From NCBI RefSeq assembly GCF_003574655.1, contig NZ_QNUM01000015.1:1-41137 (forward strand): a stretch of 41,137 nt of DNA, read 5' to 3'. Numbering within the stretch: position 1 is the stretch's first letter; each line of letters opens with the position of its first letter. The stretch comes from Cohaesibacter haloalkalitolerans. GTDB lineage: Bacteria; Pseudomonadota; Alphaproteobacteria; Rhizobiales; Cohaesibacteraceae. Under the pieces are notes generated by a model that was not told the origin of the DNA, searched no databases, and saw only the letters and a list, made by a program, of their open reading frames with translations. A program made the position numbers and the translations under genes. Positions 22,001-39,859 of the stretch are shown piece after piece.

Positions 22001-22837
22001 TTAGCGCAGTTCGCTGATCTTCAGGTGGTCCATGTCGTCAAAGACCTGGTTTTCGCCAACCATGCCCCAGATGAAGGTGTAGGCCTTGGTGCCGACGCCG
22101 CTGTGGATCGACCAGCTCGGAGAGATCACGGCCTGTTCGTTGTGAACCAGAATGTGACGGGTCTGGGTTGGCTCGCCCATCATGTGGAAGACGGCGTTGT
22201 CCTCGTCGATGTCGAAATACAGGTAGACTTCCATGCGCCGGTCGTGGGTATGGCAAGGCATGGTGTTCCAGATGCTGCCCGGAGCCAGTCGGGTCAGACC
22301 CATGGTCAGCTGGCAGGTTGGCAGGACATCGGGGATGATGAATTTGTTGATGGTGCGCTCGTTGCAGCTTTCCTTGTCACCCATGGCGACCTGCACAGCA
22401 TCGTCCTTGCTGATCTTGGTGGTCGGATAGGCGCAATGGGCCGGAGCGCTGTTGTAGTAGAGCTTGGCGGGATTGGACGGATCGACGCTGGCGAAGGACA
22501 CATTGCGTGAGCCCATCGAGATGTAGAGGGCCTGCTCGTTGTCGATGTCATAGACCGTGCCGTCGACGGTGACCTTGGCCGGACCGCCGATGTTGATCAG
22601 GCCAAACTCGCGGCGTTCGAGGAAATAGCTGACGCCGAGGCCCTTGCCGAAATCATCGGACAGAACGAGCGTCTTGCCAACCGGCTTGATGCCGCCGACG
22701 ATGATCCGGTCGACGTGGCTGTAGGTCATCGTGATGGTGTCTGGTTTGAAAATTTCCGGAATGAGGAACTCGTTCCTCAATTCGTCGGTGTCCAGCTGCT
22801 TTGCCTCTTTGCGGCTGATGCTTTCGCGGACTTCCAT
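22001..22837 (-). CDS. kduI: 5-keto-4-deoxyuronate isomerase KduI
   Basis: This 278-aa cupin isomerase converts 4-deoxy-L-threo-5-hexosulose uronate (DKI) to 2,5-diketo-3-deoxygluconate in the cytoplasm. The zinc ligands of characterised KduI are all present at their standard numbers: His196, His198, Glu203 and His245. Length and the motifs [16 protein letters not shown] and [13 protein letters not shown] match the family. AGGAGAAG precedes the ATG. It is a single-gene transcript, divergent from an IclR-type regulator, and its product feeds KduD. Confidence 0.95.
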
Positions 22838-22995
22838 GGTCGACTTCTCCTGCTGTTAGTGGTCTGGGCGAAGCCTGCGAACAAGATGCTCGCGGTTCTG
22901 GCGCGGCTATGCATAATCCTGATTATGCCAAAAGCCGCTCGAACAGCCGGTCAAGCAGGTGTCAGCCTGAGTGCCCAGAGCCTGAAGTTTGCCAG

Positions 22996-23024
22996 ACCAT
23001 TGCACGATATTCAAATTTGGTCAA
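22996..23024 (-). promoter_or_regulatory. Candidate kduI promoter with IclR operator-like motif
   Basis: On the minus strand TTGACC (23024-23019) and a weak AATGGT (23001-22996) are 17 bp apart. The spacer contains AAATTTGAAT (23018-23009). The same ATTCAAATTT decamer occurs at 24301-24310, upstream of the cupin-TRAP operon on the other side of the IclR gene, suggesting a shared operator. The rest of the 22838-23227 gap shows only AT-rich sequence near 23020-23045. Confidence 0.4.
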
Positions 23025-23227
23025 ATAATTTTGTATTTAAATAGCTTGTGTGCTAAATGGAATGGTGTCGTTGAAGTGGCGGCATTTTGCCTTGGATTTC
23101 GCGCAGGATCTCGCTCCTTGCGCTGTTATTGCGTGGAAAAGAAAGGCACTTTGAAAGCTGTGGAATCGTCGGGTGGGTGACTGTCGCATTCCTGTCGGGA
23201 CTGTGATTGCGGAGGCGAAAGAGTGAA

Positions 23228-24007
23228 ATGAGCGAGACGACATCCAAATACAAGGCCCCGGCGCTGGAGCGCGGACTTGATATTCTCGAGTTGCTCAGCG
23301 AACAGGACGAGGCGATCTCCAAGAAGGACATGGTGGCAAAGCTCGGGCGGTCGGTGAACGAGCTCTATCGCATGCTGGCCATTCTGGAGGCGCGCGGCTA
23401 TATCACGACCGAGCCCGAAAGTGGCAAATATCGCCTGACCCTCAAGATGTTCGAATTGTCGAACAAGTTCCCGCCGATGCAGCGGTTGCTGAATGCTGCC
23501 GGTACGGAGATGGCCAAGCTGTCGGAAAAGACGCAGCAATCCTGTCACCTGTCGGTGCTTCATGATGCGGAGATGGTTGTCATTGCCGTGCAGGACAGCC
23601 CCTACAAGATGGGCTTTTGCATTCGCCTCAGTGCGCGGATCGATGTGCATGGGTCCGGCTCCGGTTTCGCCATGCTGGCCTTTCAGCCAGAAGATCAGCG
23701 GCGGGCCATTCTGGAAGCATCGGAAACGCCGGAACCGGTGATCGAGAGTGTGCTGAGCCAGATGGACAAGGTGCGCCAGAAGGGCTATTTCATCGGGGCA
23801 AGCCCGCAGATCAGCGGGGTTACCAACATCAGCTATCCGATCTTCAACAGCAACCGGCAGGTCGAGGCGGTTCTGACAATGCCGTTTCTCACGCTGAACT
23901 CGGACAGCTTGCATCATCAGGTCGTCAGTTTCGAAGAATCGCGCCTAGCGGTCGCAGACGCTGCCGACAACCTCATCCATGCCATCGGTGGCTGCACGCC
24001 CGAGTAG
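23228..24007 (+). CDS. IclR-family transcriptional regulator (KdgR-like)
   Basis: This 259-aa protein has an N-terminal winged helix (ALERGLDILELLSEQDEAISKKDMVAKLGRSVNELYRMLAILEARGYI, about residues 11-60) and a C-terminal IclR effector domain. The latter includes HLSVLHDAEMVVIAVQDSP, GSGFAMLAF and SYPIFNSNRQVEAVLTMPF. KdgR of this family represses pectin and KDG genes, releasing DNA on 2-keto-3-deoxygluconate binding. The position between kduI and the KdgF-like/TRAP operon supports a similar role, but the ligand is inferred. The ATG at 23228 has GGAGG 12 bases upstream and AAAGAG closer. Confidence 0.87.
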   Translation: MSETTSKYKAPALERGLDILELLSEQDEAISKKDMVAKLGRSVNELYRMLAILEARGYITTEPESGKYRLTLKMFELSNKFPPMQRLLNAAGTEMAKLSEKTQQSCHLSVLHDAEMVVIAVQDSPYKMGFCIRLSARIDVHGSGSGFAMLAFQPEDQRRAILEASETPEPVIESVLSQMDKVRQKGYFIGASPQISGVTNISYPIFNSNRQVEAVLTMPFLTLNSDSLHHQVVSFEESRLAVADAADNLIHAIGGCTPE

Positions 24008-24699
24008 GGCGTTGTTCCTTTCAGCTTGCACCAGCCTTCATCTGGTCTGATGGCCGGAGGGCTTGCTGTTGGGCGAGCCTGTCGTGATATGATCCCGATC
24101 TTCCCCTTTTGCCGGACCCCGCCAGGCTTGTTACGCCTGACGTGTTGTGTCTGATGTGTGGTGTCTGGGCTGATGTTGTTGTCTGCCCGAGCGCTGCCGC
24201 CTCTAATCTTTCGATGATTGCTGAGCTTGCCTGATGCTGGTGGTAAGGGGTGATGGTCGTGACGACCTGGCTAGATGAATCGAGTTCCTGTTGGTTTGGA
24301 ATTCAAATTTAAATTATTTTTCCGCATTCAGAAAATTCCCCAAATTTTCCTATACGATGGTTGTACGACAAACGTCCTTGCTGTTTGTTTCTGATCAGGT
24401 GTGACTGCGAGTTTTTCCAAAATTGTAAAATATTATTCTTCAATGAAATAAATTTATGTATGAAACTTGTTTAGATTTGAATTTTGAGGAATTTATTTTC
24501 CTGCTTCGCCTTTTGCTTCAGGTGGCGGATTTCGCCCAAAGTTCGAAATCTACGCTAAGATGTTGAAGAGACTGTCTTACAAAATCGGATCACAATTTGC
24601 ATGTTTTGTGTTTGAAAATTCATACTTGACTAGATCGATTTATTTATGAATAGTTTCGTCATCCGTGATACGAGACACATGAAAAGAGCGAGACATCCC
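24008..24699. promoter_or_regulatory. Long AT-rich regulatory gap before the cupin-TRAP operon
   Basis: About 690 bases have no gene. GC falls sharply from about 24290. Candidate sites are a perfect palindrome GGTCGT-G-ACGACC (24255-24267), ATTCAAATTT (24301-24310, shared with the kduI promoter), a degenerate opposite copy GATTTGAAT near 24474, TTGT-ACG-ACAA (24361-24371) and TGAA-AA-TTCA (24613-24622). TTGACT at 24626 could be a -35, but no good -10 fits. The promoter of the downstream operon must lie here, and its AT-richness fits a strongly regulated or curved promoter. Confidence 0.45.
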
Positions 24700-25113
24700 A
24701 TGACAGAGCGTAAGAAGTTTGTTTACACGATCAAGGATCTGCCCCTGACCCCGATTGTTGAAGATCAAGGTATCTGCACACGGTTCCTGTTAAGCGAAAA
24801 CATTATGGTCAGCTTCATCGAAAACCCTCCGGGGGCGACCTTCCCGATCCATCAGCATGAATGCGAGCAGATCATGATCATGACTGAAGGGTCCGAGGCA
24901 CATGAAGTGAATGGCGAGATCATCATGATGAAGGCGGGTGATGTTGCTGTGCATCCGTCCAATGTGCCGCATGGCGGCAAAACGGAAACCGGCATGAAAG
25001 CGATCGATATCTTTGCGCCGCATCGCGATGCCCATCTCGAAAAAATGAAGCAATACGGCACCATGCCCAATCCGGATGGTACCTATCCTGCCAAAAACAA
25101 CATTGAAGAGTGA
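24700..25113 (+). CDS. Cupin-domain protein, KdgF-like
   Basis: This 137-aa single-domain cupin has metal-ligand pattern His51, His53, Glu57 (HQHECEQ) and His91 (VPHG), with the second motif AGDVAVHPSNVPHG. KdgF proteins promote ring-opening of unsaturated uronate to DKI, the substrate of KduI. The sequence pattern and the genomic setting fit, though similarity to KdgF was judged by eye only. The start is uncertain: ATGs at 24646, 24679 and 24700 are in frame, and 24700 is chosen for family length. It is first in the run leading to TRAP set 3. Confidence 0.75.
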   Translation: MTERKKFVYTIKDLPLTPIVEDQGICTRFLLSENIMVSFIENPPGATFPIHQHECEQIMIMTEGSEAHEVNGEIIMMKAGDVAVHPSNVPHGGKTETGMKAIDIFAPHRDAHLEKMKQYGTMPNPDGTYPAKNNIEE

Positions 25114-25170
25114 GATTCTGAAGACCGTCTGAATATTTGAAAATAGATCGACACGCAGCGGGAGGAAATT

Positions 25171-26151
25171 ATGCGTAAATTGTCGAACCTGTTGAAGGTA
25201 TTAGTCTGTGGCTCGACCATGAGCCTCATGGTCATGGCCTCGGCTCAGGCCATCACGCTGAAACTGGGGCATTATGTGGAGCTGGATCATCCCGGTAACC
25301 TTGCTGCCCAGCAAATGGCTGATCGTGTGAAGGAGAGGACACACGGCGAAGTCACCATCCAGATTTTCCCGGCCAACCAGTTGGGCTCGCCCGATGAGGT
25401 TCTGGAACAGAATGTTCTGGGCGCCATCGACATGGCGTTGCCGACACAGGGACATCTGGATAAGTATTCCAAGAAATTTGCCACCGTCATGACGCCATTT
25501 GCTTTCCGTGACAGACAGCATGTCTATCAGGTGCTGGATGGTCCGTTCATGAAGTGGGCGGCACCGGATCTGGAAGCTCAGGGGCTGGTCTATCTGTCCA
25601 ACTGGGACTATGGCTTCCGCAACATCACCAACGGCAAGCATCCGATCAATGTGCCTGAAGACGTCAAGGGACTGAAACTGCGTACGCCACCGGAAGTCCA
25701 GCTGCAGTCTGCCATGTCTGCTCTGGGTGCCAACGTTACCCAGATGGCCTTCAATGAGCTCTATCTGGCACTGCGGCAGGGCGTGGTCGATGGTCAGGAA
25801 AACCCTCTTTCTGTCATCTACCACAACAAGCTCTATGAAGTTCAGGACAATCTGGCCATCACCCAGCATGTCTACAACTCCATGGTCAGCGTCATCTCCA
25901 AGCGCAGCTGGGACAAGCTGACCCCGGAACAGCAGACGATCCTGAAGGAAGAAAGTGCCTCTGCCGGTCAGATGATGCGCGATCTGATGGAAAAGGAAGA
26001 CGGCGAGCTAATCAAGAAGCTCGAGGAAAAGGGCATGAAGGTCACTTATCCTGACAAGGCTCTGTTCAAGGACAAAATGGGCCCGGCCTATGAAGCCGTT
26101 GGCAAATATGCAGGTGAAGAAAACCTGAAGACATTCCTTGAAATGCTTTGA
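25171..26151 (+). CDS. dctP: TRAP transporter solute-binding protein DctP (set 3)
   Basis: This 326-aa periplasmic protein has a signal peptide of about 27 residues ending AQA before ITLKLGH. Family segments include IFPANQLGSPDEVLEQNVLGAIDMA, LKGLKLRTPPEVQ with the conserved arginine, and LALRQGVVDGQENPLSVIY. It resembles the set-1 DctP (DGVENPLAVIY) more than the set-2 protein. GGGAGG precedes the ATG. A strong terminator-like hairpin follows immediately. Confidence 0.93.
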   Translation: MRKLSNLLKVLVCGSTMSLMVMASAQAITLKLGHYVELDHPGNLAAQQMADRVKERTHGEVTIQIFPANQLGSPDEVLEQNVLGAIDMALPTQGHLDKYSKKFATVMTPFAFRDRQHVYQVLDGPFMKWAAPDLEAQGLVYLSNWDYGFRNITNGKHPINVPEDVKGLKLRTPPEVQLQSAMSALGANVTQMAFNELYLALRQGVVDGQENPLSVIYHNKLYEVQDNLAITQHVYNSMVSVISKRSWDKLTPEQQTILKEESASAGQMMRDLMEKEDGELIKKLEEKGMKVTYPDKALFKDKMGPAYEAVGKYAGEENLKTFLEML

Positions 26152-26160
26152 GATCATGGC

Positions 26161-26193
26161 GGCTGGCAGGGGATGACCCTGCCAGCCGTTTTT
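26161..26193 (+). terminator. Intra-operon terminator/attenuator after dctP (set 3)
   Basis: Perfect 11-bp arms GGCTGGCAGGG and CCCTGCCAGCC, a 5-nt loop, then GTTTTT. It lies 10 bp after dctP and 28 bp before dctM. It should reduce transcription of the membrane subunits relative to the binding protein. Confidence 0.85.
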
Positions 26194-26220
26194 CGGGAGG
26201 GAATACCGGGAGGGAATACA

Positions 26221-27495
26221 ATGTCACCGGCAATCATATTCTTGGGGCTGATCGCCCTCATTTCCATGGGCGTGCCCATCGCCATTTCCCTTGGAACCAT
26301 TTCACTGGCTGCGATGACTGACAACCTGCCGGCCCTCGGGCTGATGGCCCAGCGCATGTATTCCTCGACAACGGGGTTCACGCTGCTGGCGATCCCCTTT
26401 TTCATTCTGGCCGGCAACCTGATGAATACCGGTGGTATTACGGAGAAGATCTTCCGCTTTGCCAAGGCGGCCGTTGGCCACTATTGGGGCGGACTTGGTC
26501 AGGTCAACATCTTTTCATCCATCATCTTTTCCGGCATGTCCGGCGCTGCGGTTGCCGATGCTGCCGGTCTTGGCAAGATCGAGATCAAGGCCATGGTCGA
26601 TGATGGCTATGGCAAGGAATTTGCTGGCGCCATCACGGCAGCTTCTTCGACCATCGGACCGGTGATCCCGCCGTCGATCCCGTTTGTCATCTATGGTTCG
26701 ATGACCGGTGTCTCGGTCGGCAAGCTGTTCATGGCGGGCATGGTGCCGGGGCTGCTGATGGCGGTTGCCATGGCGCTGGCCGTCTATGTCATCTCGCGCA
26801 AACGCAATTATCCGCGTCGCCCCAGGGCTGCCTGTTCGGAACTGTGGCGCAGCTTCGTTGATGCCTTTCTGGCGCTGCTGACGCCGATCATCATCATCGG
26901 CGGTATTCTGGGCGGCTGGTTCACGCCAACGGAAGCGGCCATCATCGCCTGCATCTATGCAATCATCCTGTCCGGCCTTATCTATCGGGAGCTGACCTGG
27001 AGCAAGCTGCTGTTCATTCTGGAGGACACCCTGCTGCACACGGTGCGAGTCATGTTCATCATGGCGACAGCGGGCTTCTTTGCCTGGGTCCTGATCCTCA
27101 ATCAGGTGCCGCAGGCGCTGATTTCAGGCCTGACGACCGTGACGCAATCGCCAACCCTCTTGCTGCTGATCATGATCGGGGTGCTGCTCATTCTGGGCAT
27201 GTTCCTTGAAGGGATCGCCGTCATCTTGATCTGTGTGCCGATCTTCATGCCCGTCGTGGACATGATCGGCATGGACCCGATCCAGTTTGGCGTCATCATG
27301 ATCCTGGCCTCGATGATCGGCCTGCTCAGCCCGCCGGTTGGCATGTGCCTTTATGCCGTCGCTTCCATCGCGGATGTGAAGATCGGAACGCTCAGCAAGG
27401 AGGTGATGCCCTATATCCTTGGCATTCTCGTCGTGCTGCTGCTGATCGCCTTCATTCCGGCGCTGTCCCTTTCCACCACTTACCTGATCGGGTGA
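26221..27495 (+). CDS. dctM: TRAP transporter large permease DctM (set 3)
   Basis: This 424-aa polytopic protein has IPFFILAGNLMNTGGITEKIF near residue 60, the hairpin SSTIGPVIPPSIPFVIYGSMTG near 145 and VIMILASMIGLLSPPVGMCLYAV near 358. GGGAGGG precedes the ATG at 26221; an ATG at 26173 lies inside the terminator hairpin and is rejected. It is placed before dctQ, the reverse of the usual order. Confidence 0.92.
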   Translation: MSPAIIFLGLIALISMGVPIAISLGTISLAAMTDNLPALGLMAQRMYSSTTGFTLLAIPFFILAGNLMNTGGITEKIFRFAKAAVGHYWGGLGQVNIFSSIIFSGMSGAAVADAAGLGKIEIKAMVDDGYGKEFAGAITAASSTIGPVIPPSIPFVIYGSMTGVSVGKLFMAGMVPGLLMAVAMALAVYVISRKRNYPRRPRAACSELWRSFVDAFLALLTPIIIIGGILGGWFTPTEAAIIACIYAIILSGLIYRELTWSKLLFILEDTLLHTVRVMFIMATAGFFAWVLILNQVPQALISGLTTVTQSPTLLLLIMIGVLLILGMFLEGIAVILICVPIFMPVVDMIGMDPIQFGVIMILASMIGLLSPPVGMCLYAVASIADVKIGTLSKEVMPYILGILVVLLLIAFIPALSLSTTYLIG

Positions 27496-27499
27496 CACC

Positions 27500-28021
27500 A
27501 TGATGAAGTTCATCAAGTCCTTAGACTGGGCCGTCTTCACCTTCTTTCGGGTTCTGGCTGTCGGTCTTCTGTGCCTGCTGTTCGTGCTGATGTCGCTCAA
27601 TGTGATCCTGCGCTTCTATCCGGTGTTTTCCATCGGCTGGTTCGACGAGATCGTCGAGCTGTCCTTTGCCTGGATGGTGTTTGCGACGGCGGCCATCCTG
27701 TGGCGCGGGCGCAAGCATCCCAAGATCGACTTTCTGGAGATTCTGCTCAAGGGCACACGCTGCCAGCCGGTGCTGCTGGCGGTAGTCGAGGTGATCAATA
27801 TTCTCTTCCTGAGCATCTTCACCTATTACGGCTTCATGCTGGTGATGACGGCGGCCGCGACGTCGCCGATCTTCAAGATCCCGCGCAAGGTCTTCTATGT
27901 CGCCATGCCAACGGCTGGCGTCTACATGACCATCCTGTCGGTGATCTTCTTGGCAGGCTATCTCAGAAAGATCGTTGCCTTCGAAAGCACAACGACACAA
28001 CCAGTTGAAAAATCAGTCTAG
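27500..28021 (+). CDS. dctQ: TRAP transporter small membrane subunit DctQ (set 3)
   Basis: This 173-aa protein has four hydrophobic segments and the motif SIGWFDEIVELSFAWMVFATAAILWRGRKHPKIDFL near residues 38-75, as in DctQ. It starts 4 bases after the dctM stop (ATGATG, so the second ATG at 27503 is equally possible). Gene order dctP-dctM-dctQ is less common than P-Q-M. The SDR gene follows after 18 bases. Confidence 0.87.
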   Translation: MMKFIKSLDWAVFTFFRVLAVGLLCLLFVLMSLNVILRFYPVFSIGWFDEIVELSFAWMVFATAAILWRGRKHPKIDFLEILLKGTRCQPVLLAVVEVINILFLSIFTYYGFMLVMTAAATSPIFKIPRKVFYVAMPTAGVYMTILSVIFLAGYLRKIVAFESTTTQPVEKSV

Positions 28022-28039
28022 AAACGAAAGGAATTTGTT

Positions 28040-28768
28040 GTGAGCAAAATATTGATCACGGGGGCAAGTACCGGCATCGGAGCGGAAACAGCCCGCATGC
28101 TGGCCGCAGGAAACGAACTGTTTCTGGTCTATAATCGGTCGGTTGAAAAGGCCAGAAAGCTTGAGCAGGAACTCAAGGAACTCGGAGCCACGACCCATAT
28201 GCTCCAGTGCGACATCACCAGCGAGATCGCCTGCATCGATCTGTTCAACCAGATCGGTGAATTGACCGACAGTCTGGATGTGCTGGTCAACAATGCCGGT
28301 GGGCTGGTTCGCCGTCAGGCAGCCGATGCGCTCGAATGGCAGCTGATGCAGGAGGTCTTTGCTCTCAATGTCTTCTCGCTGATGAAGATCACCTCTCTTG
28401 CCATCCCGCTGTTGCGCAAGGGCGTCAACCCCAACATCGTCAACACGACATCGGTCGTGGTGCGCCATGGTGGTCCGACAGCAACGATCTATGGCGCAGC
28501 CAAGGGCGCGGTCGATACCTTCACGCGCGGGTTGTGCAAGGAGCTGGCTCCGGTCATTCGCGCCAACTCGGTCTGCCCGGGCGTGATCGACACGCCGTTC
28601 CACGAGAAGGTTTCGACGCCTGACCAGATGAAGGCCTGGGCCGAAGGCAACCCGCTCAAGCGCAATGGCTATCCCAAGCATATTGCGCTGGCGATCAAGT
28701 TCCTGATCGAGGATGACTTCGTCAATGGCGAAAGCATCGACGTCAACGGTGGCCTGACCATCCGGTAA
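28040..28768 (+). CDS. Short-chain dehydrogenase/reductase
   Basis: This 242-aa classical SDR has TGASTGIG (7-14), NNAG (84-87) and catalytic Ser138, Tyr151 and Lys155 (YGAAK). The C-terminus VNGESIDVNGGLTIR is usual for 3-oxoacyl-ACP-reductase-like SDRs. It starts with GTG at 28040, with AAAGGA about 8 bases upstream. Its place behind the cupin and TRAP genes suggests reduction of a keto-uronate; bacterial DEH reductases of alginate breakdown are SDRs, so that is one candidate. The sequence alone does not decide. Confidence 0.85.
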   Translation: MSKILITGASTGIGAETARMLAAGNELFLVYNRSVEKARKLEQELKELGATTHMLQCDITSEIACIDLFNQIGELTDSLDVLVNNAGGLVRRQAADALEWQLMQEVFALNVFSLMKITSLAIPLLRKGVNPNIVNTTSVVVRHGGPTATIYGAAKGAVDTFTRGLCKELAPVIRANSVCPGVIDTPFHEKVSTPDQMKAWAEGNPLKRNGYPKHIALAIKFLIEDDFVNGESIDVNGGLTIR

Positions 28769-36986: not shown

Positions 36987-37038
36987 GCGGGAAGAGCTTA
37001 TGCCTCATGGGCCTAATGGAGGTCCGGGTCGGTAGACA

Positions 37039-37066
37039 TCATCGCCAGGAGACCGCCTGGCGATGA
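37039..37066 (+). other. Stem-loop after quinone oxidoreductase gene
   Basis: Perfect 11-bp arms TCATCGCCAGG and CCTGGCGATGA with a 6-nt loop, no T-run. It lies 52 bp after the stop codon and near the left border of the AT-rich block. It is perhaps a 3' end hairpin. Confidence 0.5.
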
Positions 37067-37238
37067 CACCCTCTTGTCTTCCGATCGCCTTGGGCGGGGT
37101 GGAAGGGCTGTTGCCGACGAAAGGCCAAGGTTGTGCCTGAGTGACCATTTGCACAGGGAGACCATCAAGCTTCATCCCAAAATGTGAATTTTTCTGAAAA
37201 GCATTCTGTTCGTTTTGCAATTTTGATCTGAACCATAT

Positions 37239-37270
37239 ATAGGTTGTGTAAATTTTTTCACGCAACCTAT
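37239..37270 (+). promoter_or_regulatory. Stem-loop just upstream of the glycosyltransferase fusion
   Basis: ATAGGTTGTGT (37239-37249) pairs with ACGCAACCTAT (37260-37270) over 11 bp with one G-T wobble and a 10-nt loop AAATTTTTTC. It ends nine bases before the start codon and occupies the place of a ribosome site, none of which is evident. It could control translation initiation, or be a mobile-element end. Confidence 0.5.
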
Positions 37271-37279
37271 TGGCGCATT

Positions 37280-39859
37280 ATGAGCATGGAAAATATTAGT
37301 ATTGTCATCCCAGTATACAACACTGGAAATCTGCTATTTGAATGTTATGATTCAGTAAAAATGCAGGTGTTTAAGCCGCATGAAATAATAATTGTCGATG
37401 ATGGCAGTGAAACTCCGACAAAAACGATAATATCTTATCTTCAATCGATCGATGGAAGGGTCAAAGTAGTAGAATTTGGAGAAAACCGGGGTCTTTCTGC
37501 TGCCCGAAATGCGGGGCTGAAAGCTGCAACTTCTGAAATAGTCCTGTTTCTTGATTCAGACGATATGCTGTCGAATCCCAGGGTCTTGGAATATGTTGCA
37601 GATGAGTACGGCAAAAACAAATTTGATATGCTTCGCCTTCCGACTGTATTCTACTCACAAAATCAACTGACCGGAAAGATTAGTCTTTCAGAAGATCCGA
37701 TAGATACAATAATCCCGAATTTTCTGAGGGAAGTAACTCTGAATTCAGCCCCGTTCCTGATTCATAATAGGACATGCTGGCAATTTGCCTATCGTCGGGA
37801 GTTTCTGACTTCAAATGGCATTTACTTTTTGGAAGAGTTGAGAAGGCGAGAAGATGTTCCCTTTTTGCTTACTGCTCTCTGTCAGGCGAAGGCCATCTAT
37901 ACGGGGGCGATGACAGGAACGTTCTACCGGCAAAGGGCAAACAGCATTATGAGTAGCCCTCAGTTGGGTGACCTTGAATATATCACTACAGCATATCAAT
38001 ACTGCAACAATATTATAGAAAAATATGAATGTGATGACTATGTAAAGAATATCGTGAATATTCGATATGTAGCTTCGTTCGAGGAATGCATTTCAAAGAT
38101 AGATTTTCATGAGCAAGATATTGTTGCTGCTTCATATTTGATCGATAATTTCAAATCTGTTTCTACGATTGAATTTTTGGAAAAGCTATCAACTGATCAA
38201 GACAGAATGATAGAAGGCATCAAGTTTGCTCCAGGGCTTCAGAATAAAATCGAGAACGGCATTATTGTTGATTTTGCCAGGAAGTTACTAAGAGTAACTC
38301 CAAGCACGGTTTCGGAGCTTTGTCCCTTAAGCGGATCTGGAACATCGGAAACGAGCGGTATCGAAATCGCCAAGACAGGCATACATGAAAACAACATTCA
38401 GTTGCCTGCGGTTGAACATAAAGAGCGGCCGAAATTGTTTCTCCATGTTGGACTAACAAAGACAGGATCTACTTCAATCCAGAATTTTTGCGAAGTAAAT
38501 CGTGCATCGCTTCGGGCCGAGGGACTTTTGTATCCATTTACCGGGGTGTATAAAGAAGAGGGCGGAGATAGAGGGTCTGGGCACAATTTCCTGATTAGAG
38601 ATATTGTTGACGATGATTCTGTTCTTCTTGAAAAATTTAAAACTGAAGTACAGCACGCAGAATGCCCAAATGTTATAATTTCATGCGAAAACATTTCCTA
38701 TAATCCGCTTTGGAGAAGCAAGGCCAGTCTGGAGAAGATTTCGAAAGCGTTCTCTGAATTTGATGTCATTCCTATATTGGTAAAGCGATCCAAGCTTGAT
38801 TGGGCCTTTTCGATGTATAAAGAGGCGGCAATTGGGGGCTGGTTGCGCCGAGAGGACAGCTTTTCTCATTATCTGGATGCTGAGACCGCTGTTGGCTCAT
38901 TGGATTTTGACAATATTTCTGAACTTCTTGCCACATGTTTGGGTAGCGAAGTTCAGGAAATCAGTCTTGACCGGGATGGCGGCGACCTGATCGCGGACTT
39001 TCTGTCTGTTGTTGATATTGATCGCAAGAAAGCGTCAGAAATATTTGTTCTTCCTAATGACGTCAATATTGGTGCTGTCGACAATAATATTTCGGCGTTT
39101 GTTTCGATCAACAAGCTACTAAACTGGCTTGGTTACGATAGGCGCTTTGTGAATAAAATTCGAAGCAAATACGCATTTGAAAGAAATATTGCCGATACAA
39201 ATATCGAAGAATTAAAGATTAGAATAGAGAATTCGACCGATGAGAAGGTTCCGGAAAAACTGTTAAAAAGAATCGTCGAGACAGAGCCGTCAAAAGACTT
39301 GAGATTGTTCAACTGTTTGCTGGATGAACTGGTTGTTCACGCGGGAATGAAGAATTTAAGATCATATCGAAAGGCTGCTCTGCTGGGGAACGGGTCGCCG
39401 ATAATTAAGAAAAACCAAAATATAGAGGCTGTTTTCTCATCAAACCTCGGGGACGTTATTCGGTATTGCAACAATGAAGTGGACAGAAGAAGCGCAGGTC
39501 GAAATGGTCGTCCAAATGATTACGCTTGTCTTGTTGACCTTTATTCTATGGAAAGAAGGGTCGTTGTCCATTCAAAGTTACCTATCTGGTCCTATCAGAT
39601 TCTTTGTATGAGGCCAAATGGTGATGGGATCTCCGCTTGTGATTGGATTGAAGCCGAAGTCTCTGACACAAAAGACTTGATCGTAGATATTCCAGTATAT
39701 TTGTTTCAATTAAACGCCATTCTAAAAATACGCCTAAAAACCTCTGATGGAGAGCCCGTCAGGCAAGTTTGCGCGATAAGCGTTGATGGGGAGCCAAAAC
39801 TATTAGAAGTTAGTTATTTGAAGGAGTATGACGCGGAGGGGGATTTAATAGAAGGCTGA
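37280..39859 (+). CDS. Fusion protein: GT2 glycosyltransferase + sulfotransferase-like domain + unknown C-terminus
   Basis: This 859-aa protein with no membrane segments has a GT-A glycosyltransferase family 2 domain at about 5-215: SIVIPVYNTGN, EIIIVDDGSE, GLSAARNAGL and the metal-binding DSDD at 92-95. After a helical linker, residues 386-402 read FLHVGLTKTGSTSIQNF, matching the 5'-phosphosulfate-binding loop of bacterial sulfotransferases (HxGxxKTGTTSLQ type). VIPILVKRSKLDWAFSMY (about 496-513) could supply the 3'-phosphate-binding Arg/Ser. Residues about 620-859 are unrecognised. The start is uncertain (ATG 37280 or 37286). DNA is AT-rich, unlike its left neighbours. I infer that it adds a sugar and a sulfate to a surface glycan. 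Confidence 0.75.
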   Translation: MSMENISIVIPVYNTGNLLFECYDSVKMQVFKPHEIIIVDDGSETPTKTIISYLQSIDGRVKVVEFGENRGLSAARNAGLKAATSEIVLFLDSDDMLSNPRVLEYVADEYGKNKFDMLRLPTVFYSQNQLTGKISLSEDPIDTIIPNFLREVTLNSAPFLIHNRTCWQFAYRREFLTSNGIYFLEELRRREDVPFLLTALCQAKAIYTGAMTGTFYRQRANSIMSSPQLGDLEYITTAYQYCNNIIEKYECDDYVKNIVNIRYVASFEECISKIDFHEQDIVAASYLIDNFKSVSTIEFLEKLSTDQDRMIEGIKFAPGLQNKIENGIIVDFARKLLRVTPSTVSELCPLSGSGTSETSGIEIAKTGIHENNIQLPAVEHKERPKLFLHVGLTKTGSTSIQNFCEVNRASLRAEGLLYPFTGVYKEEGGDRGSGHNFLIRDIVDDDSVLLEKFKTEVQHAECPNVIISCENISYNPLWRSKASLEKISKAFSEFDVIPILVKRSKLDWAFSMYKEAAIGGWLRREDSFSHYLDAETAVGSLDFDNISELLATCLGSEVQEISLDRDGGDLIADFLSVVDIDRKKASEIFVLPNDVNIGAVDNNISAFVSINKLLNWLGYDRRFVNKIRSKYAFERNIADTNIEELKIRIENSTDEKVPEKLLKRIVETEPSKDLRLFNCLLDELVVHAGMKNLRSYRKAALLGNGSPIIKKNQNIEAVFSSNLGDVIRYCNNEVDRRSAGRNGRPNDYACLVDLYSMERRVVVHSKLPIWSYQILCMRPNGDGISACDWIEAEVSDTKDLIVDIPVYLFQLNAILKIRLKTSDGEPVRQVCAISVDGEPKLLEVSYLKEYDAEGDLIEG

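Follow-up and report, generated by a model that had tools for sequence, protein, structure and literature searches.

Architecture of the fusion protein

The contig NZ_QNUM01000015.1 of Cohaesibacter haloalkalitolerans, analyzed over 41,137 nucleotides (hereafter the window; contig C6 of this genome), carries close to its end a gene whose product joins an N-terminal glycosyltransferase family 2 (GT2) domain, a middle domain resembling sulfotransferases and a C-terminal tail (Table 1). The gene is one frame of 859 amino acids (aa), which translates from its ATG with no stop before the terminal one; under a model of the frame's own single-base composition, 859 open codons would arise by chance with a probability of about 2e-26, and the reverse strand holds many stops in the one frame translated. 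An upstream start is possible (TTG 37244, yielding 871 aa), the ATG at 37280 being the likelier of the two.

The GT2 domain is recognized by Pfam with 106.4 bits against a curated cut-off of 23.3 and contains a DXD-type metal site, while the ED of the subsequent RRRED motif presumably stands where GT2 enzymes usually have their catalytic base. Pfam recognizes nothing else in the protein, and the NCBIfam scan returns only glycosyltransferase models, all in the N-terminal part and every one below its cut-off. A preliminary description, made from the sequence alone, had read here a single open frame with a DSDD glycosyltransferase and a P-loop motif, HVGLTKTGSTSIQ; the intact frame, the Pfam assignment and the positions of both motifs agree with it.

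Table 1. Features of the fusion gene and the adjoining end of the window
Feature	Position	Strand	Basis
GT2-sulfotransferase fusion gene, 859 aa	37280..39859	+	translation, Pfam, family profile
GT2 glycosyltransferase domain, residues 7-176, DSDD at 92-95	37298..37807	+	PF00535, E 2e-30
RRRED, residues 188-192	37841..37855	+	motif position
Sulfotransferase-like domain, residues 384-624	38429..39151	+	family profile, model, fold matches
HVGLTKTGSTSIQ, residues 389-401, predicted 5'-phosphosulfate-binding loop with Lys394	38444..38482	+	conserved in both family alignments
ISCEN, residues 467-471, including Glu470	38678..38692	+	Glu470 invariant in family alignments
VKRSKLDWAFSMYKE, residues 501-515, predicted 3'-phosphate-binding Arg503 and Ser511	38780..38824	+	conservation, profile alignments
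Unplaced C-terminal tail, residues 625-859	39152..39856	+	no Pfam or NCBIfam match
Second GT2 glycosyltransferase gene, 328 aa	39905..40891	+	PF00535, E 9.4e-29
Start of insertion-sequence-like element, contig end	41011..41137	+	127 bases identical to the end of contig C9

Fold and family of the middle domain

The predicted model of residues 378-645 reaches a mean confidence (predicted local distance difference test, pLDDT) of 84.6, and its ten best fold matches, ranked in a VIA second look at the Foldseek ranking, are sulfotransferases without exception. The fold proposed earlier for residues 380-620 is thereby recovered. The best of these matches is a human enzyme that likewise carries two glycan enzymes in one chain, although its identity to the domain is 8-9% and its partner is a deacetylase instead of a GT2.

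To define the family, 34 P-loop domains, the window domain included, were aligned, with members chosen by their loop pattern; this first alignment contains 10 of the 12 fused domains placed in the tree described below, those of the relative in genome G031 and of Leisingera S132 being absent through the motif filter. A second alignment consists of the window domain and 30 relatives found on contigs of a viral collection, likewise chosen by the loop. Seven residues are invariant in the first alignment (His389, Gly391, Lys394, Thr395, Gln401, Glu470 and Arg503, in window numbering), and Ser511 and Asn596 are among the positions conserved at 90% or more. The loop around Lys394 is conserved in both alignments; because members were selected by it, its invariance is not independent evidence. 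The conservation of Glu470, Arg503, Ser511 and Asn596 lies outside this selection: Glu470 is kept in 34/34 and 31/31 domains of the first and second alignments, Arg503 in 34/34 and at least 90%, and Ser511 in at least 90% of both. The VKRSKLDWAFSMYKE stretch falls on the R...S pair of sulfotransferases in the hhalign and Protein Data Bank (PDB) profile alignments.

The resemblance extends along the domain. A profile of the 33 other domains, built with the window sequence left out, matches residues 384-587 at E 8.9e-39 (search space set to 20000), and a profile lacking all ten fused members still matches the window protein at E 2e-31; when the domain was shuffled 200 times, the best score against the family profile was E 220. 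The earlier proposal of a sulfotransferase-type phosphosulfate site is thus carried by a domain-wide match beyond the motif itself. Among solved structures, the 34-domain profile places the Alicyclobacillus sulfotransferase 3rnl at the top (E 3.3e-6), sulfotransferases making up 4 of the 5 matches up to E 10, and the viral-collection alignment gives 3rnl at E 3.5e-8 with 13 sulfotransferases among 15 matches up to the same value. Although 3rnl is the best sequence-profile match of known structure, its chain of 311 residues has no GT2, judged by length only.

General family libraries give a different picture. The window domain has no match up to E 0.1 to Pfam PF00685, PF13469 or PF17784 (Sulfotransfer_1, _3 and _4), and the whole protein has none in a scan extended to E 10. 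At E 0.1 or better, Sulfotransfer_3 finds 3 of the 34 members, Sulfotransfer_4 finds 3 and Sulfotransfer_1 finds 2, and the NCBIfam scan returns no sulfotransferase family; the family is poorly seen by Pfam. With residues 383-641 as the query, matches occur in 45 of the 297 genomes of the order, and at E 1e-10 the family is present in 67 of them. On viral-collection contigs (L118-L172), 40 distinct stretches of the family are found at E 1e-3 or better.

Taken by its loop lysine, the arginine and serine for the 3'-phosphate and its fold, the assignment of the middle domain to the superfamily of sulfotransferases dependent on 3'-phosphoadenosine 5'-phosphosulfate (PAPS) is well supported, and the domain very probably adds sulfate.

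The C-terminal residues, about 240 in number, that the preliminary description could not place are a genuine part of the chain, and from about residue 625 to 859 they are matched by no Pfam or NCBIfam family. With residues 641-859 as the query, 199 genomes of the order yield a match in the genome of origin only, and 289 genomes of the class yield no convincing one, the hits in 7 other genomes (E 0.001-0.083, four with internal stops) being taken as chance. Four plasmid records were returned, the best at E 2, and PDB sequences gave 0 matches. The full-length single-sequence model has a pLDDT of 35.7, and therefore no conclusion on the tail is drawn from it.

Fused relatives and genomic setting

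At least 7 of the 297 genomes of the order, counting that of the window, encode a GT2 followed by this sulfotransferase-like domain; the others, at least six, are G304, G007, G115, G031, G034 and G195. The presence of GT2 was checked in six long frames from the search with residues 383-641 and in four further long frames from the family search at E 1e-10; these four have no Pfam GT2. Two relatives from a whole-protein scan of genome contigs matched in the GT2 part only and were set aside. Plasmids of Qingshengfaniella, Cereibacter and Leisingera (Rhodobacterales) carry the fusion as well, and an N-terminal Capsule_synth domain is present in 4 of the 9 fusions scanned. In a tree of 51 domains, 12 of them fused (nine and the window labelled by Pfam, L068:18223 and L070 by BLAST), the fused domains cluster, with 3 changes where shuffling requires 10.9 on average and none of 500 shuffles has as few. 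A single clade of fused domains is not rejected by the approximately unbiased test (p-AU 0.305); the window domain forms a long branch of unsure placement, and the bootstrap of the tree is unsettled. The window protein is a divergent member of a little-described fusion group, one that probably makes sulfated surface polysaccharide.

The closest architectural parallels differ from it in defined respects. Rhodobacterales plasmid proteins such as WP_146365827.1 of Qingshengfaniella alkalisoli, annotated merely as 'glycosyltransferase', share the domain order from the GT2 onward at 25.5% identity over 647 residues, while their N-terminus has an additional capsule-synthesis domain and their tail is unlike that of the window protein in sequence. 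The Leisingera plasmid proteins WP_260019193.1 and WP_259966063.1 share both the two-domain order and the size (854 and 782 aa), and they adjoin genes annotated as sulfotransferases and glf; their sulfotransferase domains are 27% (249 residues) and 33% (157 residues) identical to that of the window, whereas their tails are unlike in sequence. In the G031 relative (L063:6445-8895), the loop lysine is replaced by glycine and the column of the 3' arginine holds glutamine, with an arginine next after it; from these substitutions, its sulfotransferase domain may be inactive.

The fusion gene is followed after 45 bp by the second GT2 gene, and the two are probably in one operon. This two-gene stretch has a guanine plus cytosine (GC) content of 40.5%, against 57.0% in window positions 1-36999, and an insertion-sequence end lies 120 bp after the second gene. 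DNA similar to the terminal 127 bases, which recur at the end of contig C9, is annotated as a DUF1153 protein or a transposase; the left flank (36987-37279) is present only once in the genome. Because of the low GC and the adjoining insertion-sequence end, the pair looks laterally acquired, with the contig ending in that repeat. Elsewhere in the window (22001-28768), a KduI-like gene and genes resembling TRAP (tripartite ATP-independent periplasmic) transporters, identified by eye, suggest uronate catabolism on this contig.

The PAPS genes that the preliminary description had proposed to look for are present in the same genome, on contig C11. About 40 kb of that contig contain a cysD identified by eye, a cysNC whose APS_kinase match is E 1.3e-71 and, at the position of cysQ, a gene of the inositol-monophosphatase family. 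The same stretch has one Poly_export and three Capsule_synth genes, ATP-binding cassette (ABC) transporter genes and a sulfotransferase-like gene of the window's family in stand-alone form. The genes for PAPS synthesis and sulfotransfer thus stand in a capsule cluster on contig C11 and the window pair on contig C6. The same locus encodes a 1001-residue protein (L007:13814-16819; G000:C11, about 673.8-676.8 kb) composed of a GT2, a Sulfotransfer_3 (E 1.4e-31) and a further GT2 domain, a different architecture of glycosyltransferase-sulfotransferase fusion. It also includes a polyketide-synthase-like frame (L006:15569-20000, by eye) and an aminotransferase-family gene (L007:3462-4823), which we take to recall the rhizobial rkp region.

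In G003 and G007, of the same genus, and in G250, of another family, a family member likewise lies no more than 10 kb from an adenosine 5'-phosphosulfate (APS) kinase. Including the window's genome, this makes 4 of 106 listed matches against 0.47 expected, in a comparison covering 36 genomes common to both listings, the 106 family matches listed and one further place; the cases amount to only two independent ones (P about 0.08). Against this proximity stands the near-universality of APS kinase in the order (266/297 genomes), which makes it non-discriminating as a marker of sulfation. In G003 (L109:4188-15518), a family gene and two GT2 genes lie between two cysD-cysNC copies that are identical over the 70 leading residues compared, an arrangement that looks like the duplication or insertion of a sulfation cassette. 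A second APS kinase in the genome of the window (L079:10545-11375; G000:C9), with an apparent C-terminal part of CysN, lies near heptose-biosynthesis-like genes identified by eye.

Proposed function and alternative explanations

The most likely reading is that the protein adds both a sugar and a sulfate to one surface glycan, and a chain of two glycan-modifying enzymes is, with good confidence, the best explanation of the fusion. The N-terminal GT2 would move a sugar from a nucleotide-sugar onto a growing surface glycan, whereas the middle domain would bind PAPS through the Lys394 loop together with Arg503 and Ser511 and would pass the sulfate to a hydroxyl of the same glycan. The presence of both activities in one chain would allow sulfation during, or right after, the addition of the sugar, and the cysD-cysNC genes in the contig C11 capsule locus could supply the PAPS. 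For the tail, binding to the glycan or to the assembly machinery is speculation. The reading of the preliminary description, one protein that builds and sulfates a polysaccharide or processes it in a coupled way, is supported: the identities of the domains are well founded, and we infer the activity, the substrate and the coupling.

Another P-loop enzyme of the same fold, for instance a sugar or lipid-carrier kinase, is a highly improbable identity for the middle domain, since only sulfotransferases occupy its ten best fold rows, no kinase appears among the 5 and 15 sequence-profile matches, the Arg...Ser pair falls where sulfotransferases hold the 3'-phosphate, and an APS kinase is encoded no more than 10 kb from four family genes. 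That the domain is a sulfotransferase relic, still folded and serving the GT2 as a scaffold after losing sulfation, is improbable: its long branch, the relative in G031 without the lysine and arginine, and the position of the gene in an apparently acquired fragment outside the capsule locus speak for such a loss, whereas the window protein keeps every family-invariant residue in an intact reading frame.

The same acquired character, seen in the GC content and the nearby insertion-sequence end, would fit a transferred fragment without expression, which we regard as unlikely given that both frames are intact. Somewhat less unlikely, though still not favored, is a protein glycan, lipopolysaccharide or lipid as the target instead of a capsule; no capsule gene was seen by eye adjoining the pair on the window contig, and the second APS kinase on contig C9 stands beside the heptose-like genes, whereas a Capsule_synth domain is part of the chain in 4 of the 9 fused relatives scanned.

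Several described systems resemble parts of this arrangement. In Vibrio sp. KMM 8419 and Cobetia marina KMM 1449 (PMC11641403, PMC11766843), the clusters for a sulfated capsule resemble contig C11 in having ABC-type capsule export together with cysNC/cysD and genes for sulfotransferases; the available parts of these two reports describe the sulfotransferase genes as separate and name no glycosyltransferase-sulfotransferase fusion. According to the available part of PMC4483657, WbbB of Aeromonas salmonicida is a large chain with capsule-synthesis and glycosyltransferase domains acting on an ABC-exported glycan; it has no sulfotransferase, a sulfotransferase-like protein being encoded separately. 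No bacterial glycosyltransferase-sulfotransferase fusion was found described in the open-licence PubMed Central text searched. What is new is the fusion and a family lacking a model, and not the chemistry.

A broader proposal, which we put forward tentatively and consider possible, is that a family unrecognized by protein-family libraries couples elongation with sulfation, the pattern being written during polymerisation; larger members would add a capsule-synthesis domain, the whole would be, in bacteria, a functional parallel to the two-enzyme heparan modifiers of the N-deacetylase/N-sulfotransferase (NDST) type, and the window protein would be a divergent, laterally moved member. The catalogue of enzymes that sulfate bacterial polysaccharides is poor, and a bias of Pfam seeds potentially limits the finding of sulfate-placing enzymes in bacteria, as stated in part of a review (PMC11625862). 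The family of the window is one of this kind, and in some of its members the fused glycosyltransferase may supply the substrate to be sulfated. Were the two steps coupled, sugar and sulfate would both be set by one gene, which would help in engineering glycans with defined sulfation.
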